From Nonlabens antarcticus (GTDB lineage: Bacteria; Bacteroidota; Bacteroidia; Flavobacteriales; Flavobacteriaceae), in the NCBI RefSeq assembly GCF_015356755.1, contig NZ_JADFCO010000064.1, positions 124,001 through 188,000 of the forward strand: a DNA stretch of 64,000 bases, in the 5' to 3' direction. The position numbers were made by a program, and so were the translations under genes. The notes beneath the pieces were generated by a model. It was not told where the DNA came from. It did no database searches and worked only from the letters and a program-made list of their open reading frames with translations. Positions 21,287 to 36,988 of the stretch are shown in pieces (position 1 is the stretch's first letter; each line of letters starts with the position of its first letter).

Positions 21287-22951
21287 TTAAAAAGACAACA
21301 CAAAGTTTAAATGTGCTATAGTGCTAGTCTTTAGGTCTGTACGATCTAAAAAATAACCATTTGCGACTTGGAATTTTAGAATTCCGGCACCTGTTAGGAT
21401 ACCAAATCCGCCACCAAATGCATACATATATTGAGGATTACGATCCGTAAAACGCTCAAATACACCTGCATCTGATAAAATATTAACATAAATCTGACTA
21501 TTTAATGCGTATCTCAACTCAGTTTGCAAGAAAGTGTATGCTGCTGTATCGATATTATTCTGATTAAAACCCCTAATGGTATTAATTCCTCCTACCTGTT
21601 TGAGTTCATTAAATTGCAAATTATTGGTTTTCAATAAATAACTATTGACATTAGTTTCTAGATTAAAGTTATAGGGAAGTTTCCATAATTTGCCTAAACT
21701 CGCTCCCACCTGGTATTGAAAGTCGCTAGATTCATTTAGTGCTCTCTCTTGCACTCCAGCCTCTAGAGTAAGACTGAAGTCTTCTGGTTGTAATCGATCT
21801 CCACTATTTTTTAATACAGAATAGGATACAAGAATGCCATTTGTATTGTAATCTGGATTGTTAGAGTCGTTAAATTCGTTGCTTGTACCTGTTGAGGAGC
21901 TATTTTCATAGGTAATTTTGAGTAATGAATTTCTGGGAAGGAGATAATTCAGTCCTATGCTTAGGGATGTATTTTGATACAGGCTATCTCTTCTTAATAT
22001 CTCCAAGCCGCCACTGACTCCTATTTTTTTTCTAATTAAGCCGGGAAAACTAGCGTTGATATTTAAACGCGATTGATCATCAGTATCGTTTCTATATTCT
22101 AGATTGATTTGTTCTCCATAATTAAAATTGTTCAAAAAGCTGGCTTCTAAATAACCATTAATTTCAAGATCTCCATTTTTATCAGTATTGAATCCTATCA
22201 AGCCATCAGCAGCATTTGCAGATTTCTTTTTGATATAAATATAGAGGAGTGTGCTATCATTTTTAAAAAGCGTTTCTGGTTCTTTAAGAACCTCTATATA
22301 ATTTACACTGCTTAATTGAGATTGTATGTTATTTAAATTCCGACTATTATAAGTGGGTCTTCCCTTTACTAAGTTGTTAATTAGGTTCTTTGGATATTTA
22401 GGATATCCCTTGACAACGATTCTATCGACCTTTCGAGATTTTTCAGAAAAGACTTCTAAAAATATCTTAGCTGTATCTGCCGACGAGAAATCCCAGCGTG
22501 CCGGAATGATTTTTGCAAATGGTTGACCGCTATCATTTAATTGTTTCTGCAATCTTGATAGCTCTTCCTGTAAAGATGCTGGAGCGATGAATCGATTCCG
22601 CTTTCGCGAAAGCGAACTTTTCCCATTTGTTTTATAATCATCAAGTCTCGCGATTATAATCTCAATAGTGGAATATTGCCTTCCTAAATAAATCGTTTGA
22701 CGCCACGTAGAATTGAATGTAACAGAATCTGTCTTTGAAGTCAAATTCAAATATCCTGCGTTCAGATATTTATTACGGATACTATCAGAAGCGGTTTCAA
22801 CATCTTTTCTGGTTCCTAAATTTAGGATGGTATCAACAGCAACTCGAGAATCCTTCTCCTTATATATTGTACTTTCTAGTTTCCATTGCTGTGCAAAGAC
22901 AGATGTGAAGCATAAGGTATATATAATAAGGACAAGGGAAAATTTCAACAT
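21287..22951 (-). CDS. Omp85/TamA-like outer-membrane protein with POTRA-like region
   Basis: 554 residues with a cleavable signal peptide ending FAQQ. An N-terminal half with POTRA-like segments (DRIVVKGYPKYPKNLINNLVKG, VNYIEVLKEPETLF) precedes a 16-strand-type barrel. GGINTIRGFNQN (about residue 460) is the IRGF/VRGY signature of the Omp85/FhaC superfamily barrel, and the protein ends LNFVLSF with a terminal Phe. Candidates are a TamA-like assembly factor or a FhaC-like secretor; no secreted partner is adjacent. It stands alone between susC and the rpsL promoter. A copy of the dispersed palindrome encodes L-S-R-K-R. Confidence 0.8.
   Translation of the reverse strand: MLKFSLVLIIYTLCFTSVFAQQWKLESTIYKEKDSRVAVDTILNLGTRKDVETASDSIRNKYLNAGYLNLTSKTDSVTFNSTWRQTIYLGRQYSTIEIIIARLDDYKTNGKSSLSRKRNRFIAPASLQEELSRLQKQLNDSGQPFAKIIPARWDFSSADTAKIFLEVFSEKSRKVDRIVVKGYPKYPKNLINNLVKGRPTYNSRNLNNIQSQLSSVNYIEVLKEPETLFKNDSTLLYIYIKKKSANAADGLIGFNTDKNGDLEINGYLEASFLNNFNYGEQINLEYRNDTDDQSRLNINASFPGLIRKKIGVSGGLEILRRDSLYQNTSLSIGLNYLLPRNSLLKITYENSSSTGTSNEFNDSNNPDYNTNGILVSYSVLKNSGDRLQPEDFSLTLEAGVQERALNESSDFQYQVGASLGKLWKLPYNFNLETNVNSYLLKTNNLQFNELKQVGGINTIRGFNQNNIDTAAYTFLQTELRYALNSQIYVNILSDAGVFERFTDRNPQYMYAFGGGFGILTGAGILKFQVANGYFLDRTDLKTSTIAHLNFVLSF
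22599..22614. repeat. Dispersed palindrome copy 3, inside Omp85-like gene
   Basis: Perfect CGCTTTCGCGAAAGCG, read on the minus strand as L-S-R-K-R. On the minus strand it is followed by GGAA. Confidence 0.95.
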
Positions 22952-23040
22952 TTAAGAAATGAAGGTAATTGTAAGGTAACGCCACGAGGAAGGTTTTCTT
23001 GCCGGTGCATAAAAGATATTGTAAAAACTTGAAGATGAGA

Positions 23041-23071
23041 TTTGAATAAGCAATTATTATTCATACCTTTG
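23041..23071 (+). promoter_or_regulatory. Promoter of the str-S10-spc-alpha superoperon
   Basis: TTTG at 23041-23044, exactly 19 nt, then TACCTTTG at 23064-23071: a perfect Bacteroidota -33/-7 promoter. A short hairpin CCCTA-AAA-TAGGG (23076-23088) would be at the very 5' end of the transcript, giving a leader of about 40 nt before rpsL. Confidence 0.88.
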
Positions 23072-23113
23072 CCGACCCTAAAATAGGGAAATAATTTATT
23101 AGCGTAAAACAAT

Positions 23114-23488
23114 ATGCCAACGATTTCACAATTAGTACGTAAAGGAAGATCCAAAATAACCAAGAAGAGCAAATCTGCTGCTCTAGATTCTTGTCCTCAA
23201 CGTCGTGGAGTTTGTACTCGTGTTTACACCACAACGCCTAAGAAGCCTAACTCAGCAATGAGAAAGGTAGCGCGTGTGAGACTTACCAATGGTAAGGAAG
23301 TAAATGCATACATTCCAGGAGAGGGACACAATCTACAAGAGCACTCGATAGTATTGGTTAGAGGAGGAAGGGTTAAAGATTTACCAGGAGTTAGATACCA
23401 CATTGTACGTGGTGCTTTGGACACAGCAGGTGTTGCAGGCCGCACGCAACGTAGATCTAAGTATGGTGCAAAACGCCCTAAGAAGTAA
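23114..23488 (+). CDS. rpsL: 30S ribosomal protein S12
   Basis: 124 residues; sits at the decoding centre on the subunit interface. The [13 protein letters not shown] loop and [10 protein letters not shown] block are conserved. The lysines in TPKKPNSA and RVKDLPG, whose replacement gives streptomycin resistance in other bacteria, are wild type. First gene of the superoperon; the 67-nt gap to rpsG is the widest in the front part and holds a terminator-like hairpin. Confidence 0.99.
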
Positions 23489-23504
23489 ACAAATTTTTAA
23501 AAAA

Positions 23505-23530
23505 CCTGACATCACCATGTCGGGACTTTT
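23505..23530 (+). terminator. Terminator-like hairpin between rpsL and rpsG
   Basis: CCTGACAT-CACC-ATGTCGGG: an 8-bp stem with one wobble pair, preceded by a run of A and followed by ACTTTTT. It looks like an intrinsic terminator or attenuator inside the operon. In E. coli ribosomal protein S7 represses through the S12-S7 intercistronic region, so an S7 site is another reading. Confidence 0.6.
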
Positions 23531-23555
23531 TAATTAACAATTTCAACAAGAAGAA

Positions 23556-24032
23556 ATGAGAAAAAGACAGGCAAAAAAACGGCCGATCCTTCCAGATCCA
23601 CGTTTCAACGACCAGCTAGTGACACGCTTTGTTAACATGATGATGATGCATGGTAAGAAGTCAGTAGCGTTTAAGTGTTTTTATGATGCAATGGATATCG
23701 TAGAAGAAAAAAATCAAGACGAAGAAAAAACTTCCCTAGAAGTGTGGAAAGATGCTCTTTCAAATGTGATGCCTCACGTAGAAGTACGTAGCCGTCGTGT
23801 AGGTGGTGCAACGTTCCAGATTCCTATGCAGATTCGTCCGGATAGGAAAATATCTACTGCAATGAAGTGGTTGATAAGCTATTCTAGAAAGCGCAATGAG
23901 AAATCGTTCTCTCAAAAGCTTGCCTCAGAAATTTTAGCTGCGGCTAAAGAAGAAGGAGCGGCTGTTAAGAAAAAGACGGATACTCATAAAATGGCAGAAG
24001 CCAATAAGGCATTCTCACACTTCAGATTCTAA
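23556..24032 (+). CDS. rpsG: 30S ribosomal protein S7
   Basis: 158 residues; nucleates assembly of the 3' major domain of 16S rRNA and lines the E site. [15 protein letters not shown] at the start and [16 protein letters not shown] in the middle are characteristic. 6 nt before fusA. The upstream hairpin (23505-23530) could tune its expression relative to rpsL. Confidence 0.99.
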
Positions 24033-26493: not shown

Positions 26494-26518
26494 TAGAAAT
26501 AGGAGGTTAGTGCTATTT

Positions 26519-26534
26519 CGCTTTCGCGAAAGCG
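26519..26534. repeat. Dispersed palindrome copy 4, between rpsJ and rplC
   Basis: Perfect CGCTTTCGCGAAAGCG followed by GGAAC, in the intergenic space inside the ribosomal superoperon. As RNA it could form an 8-bp self-complementary arm pair, but with no loop it would be a poor hairpin. Confidence 0.95.
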
Positions 26535-26572
26535 GAACAACAAGAATAAATAATAACAATTAATTAAATATT

Positions 26573-36650: not shown

Positions 36651-36651
36651 T

Positions 36652-36867: not shown

Positions 36868-36868
36868 T

Positions 36869-36985
36869 ATGAAAGTTAGAGCATCAATTAAAAAGAGAAG
36901 TGCAGATTGTAAGATCGTACGTCGTAAAGGACGACTTTACGTAATCAACAAGAAGAACCCAAAATTTAAACAAAGACAAGGTTAA
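36869..36985 (+). CDS. rpmJ: 50S ribosomal protein L36, zinc-free form
   Basis: 38 residues, [20 protein letters not shown] followed by a basic tail ending KFKQRQG. The E. coli zinc ligands at 11, 14, 27 and 33 (Cys, Cys, Cys, His) are here Ser, Cys, Asn and Phe, so only Cys14 remains and no zinc site can form. The gene fills the gap between infA and rpsM, its usual location. Confidence 0.96.
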
Positions 36986-36988
36986 GCT

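Follow-up and report, generated by a model that had tools for sequence, protein, structure and literature searches.

A stem–loop in the rpsL–rpsG spacer

In the window (the whole 64,000-nt stretch of the Nonlabens antarcticus genome, G000, analysed here), rpsL, encoding uS12, occupies 23114..23488 (+) and rpsG, encoding uS7, occupies 23556..24032 (+). The 67-nt spacer between them (23489..23555, +) contains the stem–loop CCTGACAT-CACC-ATGTCGGG at 23505..23524 (+), which has eight pairs (seven Watson–Crick, including four G-C, and one G-U) and a 4-nt loop. The nucleotides AC follow the stem, and then TTTTT at 23527..23531 (+), a run of five that is not conserved in the genus. An earlier note on this DNA had described an 8-bp stem with a T run 3′ of rpsL, which is present as claimed, and had placed rpsG 26 nt downstream, which is correct when counted from 23530; from the end of the stem the distance is 31 nt. 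In the minimum-energy fold of the spacer, an A tract is predicted to pair with the T tract, extending the hairpin to 15 pairs (23497..23533, +), and the centroid fold of the 131-nt region contains the core alone. By computation, the hairpin lies between the rpsL stop codon and an unpaired, A-rich rpsG start region (23534..23555, +), which is near-identical in its letters throughout the genus and usually falls outside the stem.

Between rpsL and position 36651, only two spacers called by the gene caller exceed 19 nt, those of rpsL–rpsG (67 nt) and rpsJ–rplC (79 nt), and each contains a hairpin. Further downstream, an apparent 121-nt spacer at 36868–36988 seems to contain a very small gene below the length limit of the gene caller, presumably rpmJ. 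Upstream of rpsL, the sequence TACCTTTG at 23064..23071 (+), with TTG at 23042–23044, 19 nt apart, is a candidate rpsL promoter of the flavobacterial type; as a −7 element it matches the consensus TAnnTTTG given in the part of PMC9723704 available to us. A small hairpin, CCCTA-AAA-TAGGG (23076..23088, +), lies close to where the str mRNA is expected to begin, and similar short stems with altered letters were seen by eye, and not counted, upstream of rpsL in many members of the family, including most of the named loci inspected.

Pattern scans and the folding of a single genome were rejected as deciding evidence, being too weak. Terminator-like sites in 19 kb numbered 11 by pattern count, against 12.5 expected, and are thus not above chance. 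The 131 nt around the hairpin folded with a z score of −1.72 (13 of 200 shuffles were equally good), and the energy of the 67-nt spacer folded alone was matched by 8 of 1,000 shuffles. The hairpin in the rpsL–rpsG spacer is nevertheless real, and the strong evidence for it is comparative and comes from within Nonlabens.

Pairing is conserved in Nonlabens and sequence is not

We located rpsG in all 23 Nonlabens genomes. In 22 of them the spacer (48–68 nt) carries a hairpin, with changing letters; the exception, G018, has a 27-nt spacer without one. Tested one spacer at a time, only 8 of the 22 hairpins were matched by 50 or fewer of 1,000 shuffles, and those of L101, L102 and L104 were each matched by more than 200. 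Counted outwards from the loop, pairs 1–6 are nonetheless formed in 22, 22, 21, 21, 20 and 21 of the 22 genomes, by 5, 4, 5, 5, 5 and 6 standard pair types, in a register chosen by folding, with the loop of L101, whose best fold differs, assigned by analogy and the register of L103 shifted by one pair for the inner-pair count. Because the register had been picked by folding, we ran a chimera test with a fixed split, in which 17 spacers of 59–68 nt were all cut equally far from rpsG and their halves exchanged between genomes (L083, L084, L085, L087 and L098 were too short for this split and were left out). Halves from the same genome folded at a mean of −10.5 kcal/mol, compared with −6.0 kcal/mol for 272 chimeras, and none of 10,000 permutations gave a value as low. 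These chimeras supersede an arm-pairing test with a genome-specific choice of loop (0 of 2,000), which we discarded as biased, the loop itself having been picked by folding.

Along the spacer, variability is highest in the stem and among the lowest in the last 22 nt or so before rpsG. Loops are 3–9 nt long and differ in their letters, although the loop U(A/G)CUC is common to 11 of the 22 genomes, all from a single subclade. Taken together, these data demonstrate that the complementarity of the arms is kept in Nonlabens and that their sequence is not. The compensatory changes that the earlier note had proposed to look for among Flavobacteriaceae are therefore borne out within the genus Nonlabens and do not extend to the whole family. 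Substitutions between close relatives were dropped as a signal of selection: 12 of 15 changed pairs remain paired and 13 of the 15 changes are transitions only, so that a P of 2.5e-5 under uniform mutation becomes 0.46 with a transition-only model.

In a tree of rpsL, rpsG and fusA, the deepest Nonlabens are G011, which has the hairpin, and G018, which has none. The sister lineages Dokdonia, Cochleicola and Leeuwenhoekiella aequorea have spacers of 23–26 nt without a hairpin. This distribution at the base of the tree suggests that the hairpin probably dates back to the origin of the genus, with a single loss since then.

Long spacers in the wider family are usually folded

Outside Nonlabens, the spacer is usually short. 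Among 75 loci in a first set, 69 spacers are at most 26 nt and 6 are at least 38 nt. A second set, the best-ranked 107 of 280 matches and hence biased to close S7 relatives, gave 105 loci that could be read (L197 and L222 could not), with 93 spacers of at most 31 nt and 12 of at least 39 nt, two of which repeat loci of the first set; the two sets also overlap in species. Together, the 162 sampled spacers of at most 31 nt have a median of 22 nt. Of the 16 distinct spacers of at least 38 nt, which are not independent (three are from Arenibacter and two from genus g27), 14 fold at P values of 0.036 or lower against shuffles (6 of 6 and 8 of 10 in the two sets), and those of L180 and L251 do not fold significantly. 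As controls, with gene borders taken from a simple in-house gene caller, 15 of 67 same-strand spacers of 36–110 nt fold in seven long-spacer genomes, as do 12 of 49 in G000, rpsL–rpsG and rpsJ–rplC included. The excess among long rpsL–rpsG spacers has a Fisher P of 2e-6 against the former set and 7e-6 against the latter.

The stems usually begin 0–11 nt past the stop codon and end 10–29 nt short of the start codon, apart from exceptions at 1 and 3 nt. In the long non-Nonlabens spacers, a median of 25 nt lies outside the stems, near the 22 nt of the short spacers. The mean length outside stems is no shorter than in shuffled spacers (23.9 versus 21.4 nt; in Nonlabens, 29.7 versus 18.5 nt), whereas its spread is narrower than in shuffled ones (matched by 1 and 6 of 300 shuffle sets, respectively).

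A candidate attenuator upstream of rplC

Of 20 loci fetched from the family (L275–L294), 18 carry upstream of rplC the element ACATGTCC..AGC..GGAAAAACGG, after which come a strong hairpin and a T run; of the other two, L284 is a variant and the stretch fetched for L280 ended short of the match to our model of the element (R1) in that genome (G113). RNAalifold gives the element 16 pairs, 9 of them with two-sided changes, and another possible pairing, which involves the terminator loop, has weak support (109 of 5,000 permutations). R1 has matches in 100 of 120 family genomes. Across the class it matches 5 of 149 genomes, with one strong match, from the same family, and four weak ones. The distance from R1 match to rpsG is 2,929–3,169 bases in the 11 matches compared, as expected for a position between rpsJ and rplC. 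Against Rfam, 14 of the 20 loci gave no match above E 0.06 and all matches were below gathering, and we found no description of the element in the portions of the literature searched. We regard it as a candidate ribosomal attenuator of Flavobacteriaceae, which may prove new for a large bacterial family.

R1 matched none of the 23 Nonlabens genomes, the window included. Their rpsJ–rplC spacers are 70–94 nt long, with another hairpin inside; in the window (26494..26572, +), a highly iterated palindrome at 26520–26533 stands in place of the family's rplC leader. We considered whether the rpsL–rpsG hairpin compensates for the lost leader and set this aside, seeing no sign of a link, as the leader is kept in the six non-Nonlabens genomes with a hairpin that were checked (G039, G048, G057, G101, G183 and G246).

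The palindrome itself, CGCTTTCGCGAAAGCG, occurs in 480 exact copies in G000 (reversed control, 0), nine of them in the window, at 1672, 7043, 22600, 26520, 42534, 45214, 49858, 52545 and 56055. Among 249 genomes of the family, five (G000, G016, G022, G211 and G227) have 153–630 copies and the others at most 12. In kind it resembles the cyanobacterial HIP1, and no description of it was found in the literature searched.

Alternative explanations for the hairpin

The hairpin could be a partial intrinsic terminator, or a processing or stabilizing hairpin, that yields additional rpsL-only transcripts. In support of this idea, the window has the stem, the T5 (2 nt after the stem) and the upstream A tract, runs of at least five T (5–7) follow the hairpin in 10 of the 22 Nonlabens, and the excerpt of PMC10687069 available to us reports a 3′ end at rpsL, from termination or processing, in enteropathogenic Escherichia coli in stationary phase. 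However, the run is only 1–3 T in the other 12, and the stems of the long spacers of Arenibacter (L015, L036 and L048) and L207 have none after them. A terminator score of the d'Aubenton-Carafa form, which rates unbroken stems only (so that another hairpin was rated in L083, L091, L092 and L096), exceeds zero in 1 of 22 Nonlabens (G017); within G000 it does so for 6 of 13 convergent spacers and for 1 of 49 on the same strand. The window hairpin scores −46.5, whereas 300 random coding windows reach up to −44.0. Because the T run is not kept and the score is poor, termination fails as a genus-wide explanation, and we consider this reading rather unlikely, with weak or conditional termination possible in some species. 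The earlier note's suggestion that transcription into the long downstream operon is reduced may thus apply to the genome of the window and does not carry over to the genus. A neutral origin, in which a palindrome arose by insertion or template switching and its arms were kept complementary by copying, without function, also seems unlikely. Template switching does repair imperfect palindromes, another palindrome is abundant in Nonlabens genomes (480 copies in G000, as above), one member of the genus lacks the hairpin, and the pairing retained between close relatives is what transitions alone would give, so that the comparison shows no selection. On the other side, the stem is single-copy in its genome at up to three mismatches and is not a dispersed genomic palindrome, significant folding is limited to 12 of the 49 same-strand spacers of comparable length in G000, and, of the 15 changes seen in five pairs of close relatives, 14 are one-sided, whereas copying would make them two-sided.

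A third explanation, also raised by the earlier note, is that the hairpin is a binding site for S7 (or S12) in autogenous control, as in E. coli. The location between rpsL and rpsG is that of the E. coli S7 target, and half of the 22 Nonlabens with a hairpin share the loop described above. In the other 11, however, loop and stem letters differ freely while S7 remains 93–98% identical across the genus, and this variation speaks against an S7 site; autogenous control by S7 is not supported. Moreover, the spacer of most family members is too short to hold such a site, and Rfam gave no match in the window at the gathering score (four sub-gathering matches lie in 22950–23700). Likeness to the 3′ domain of 16S rRNA is no guide, as 445 of 500 shuffles were as good as the window and the E. 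coli control fails likewise (355 of 500), which leaves the comparison without power. We consider control of this kind very unlikely.

A proposed folded spacer that would keep the genes coupled

The reading that we prefer, tentatively and with somewhat less than even confidence, is that the hairpin is a folded spacer, which would keep the S12 stop codon near the S7 start codon and leave the S7 start region open. On this model, an enlarged spacer folds up, so that stop and start would stay close enough for coupled translation; the hairpin would take up the rest of the spacer, freeing the start region and screening it from pairing, and may keep ribosomes that finish S12 close to the start of S7. 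Any effects on transcript ends would be secondary and species-specific. Translational coupling between these two genes has a precedent, because repression by S7 in E. coli requires coupled rpsL–rpsG translation, according to the part of PMC10931766 available to us. In Flavobacterium johnsoniae, sequences between −20 and +20 of the start codon have little tendency to pair, and more markedly so in highly translated genes (PMC6847099, from the text we could access). Against the folded-spacer reading stand the 27-nt spacer of G018, without a hairpin, and the non-significant folding of L180 and L251. We hold it no more firmly because shuffled spacers leave the same or a lower mean length outside stems.

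A broader and more doubtful proposal is that Flavobacteriaceae, with starts that lack Shine–Dalgarno pairing, would tolerate a long S12–S7 spacer mainly if it is folded, and that many unrelated hairpins were gained independently, keeping the genes coupled. The same branch, Nonlabens, would have lost the candidate rplC attenuator, so control of its entire ribosomal-protein operon may have been rewired. If the folded-spacer reading is true, it would show how a phylum without Shine–Dalgarno starts maintains translational coupling, and would offer an example of an RNA shape selected almost independently of its sequence. The five natural lengths and forms of the spacer make the reading easy to test.

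Comparison with known RNA elements

With intrinsic (Rho-independent) terminators the hairpin shares, in the window, a stem and a T run; it differs in the 12 of 22 relatives without the run, in its low score and in the essential genes downstream. The flavobacterial leaders of L13, S4, S15, S16 and L19 (PMC7247131) are likewise mRNA structures that belong to ribosomal-protein operons in Bacteroidetes, but their letters are conserved, unlike those of the Nonlabens hairpin, and Table 1 in the accessible part of that paper has no S7 or S12 leader. The SAR11 rpsL motif is also a structured RNA in a str operon; as presented in the sections of PMC2704228 available to us, it lies upstream of rpsL and forms a three-stem junction, unlike the spacer hairpin. 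The likeness to the E. coli S7 target is one of place and of a structured spacer, which in E. coli is 96 nt long with a predicted −18.0 kcal/mol. In the accessible text of PMC10931766, the E. coli structure is not obviously conserved elsewhere, although long S12–S7 spacers are common, and it is a multi-helix fold with letters read by S7, whereas that of Nonlabens is one simple hairpin with free letters.
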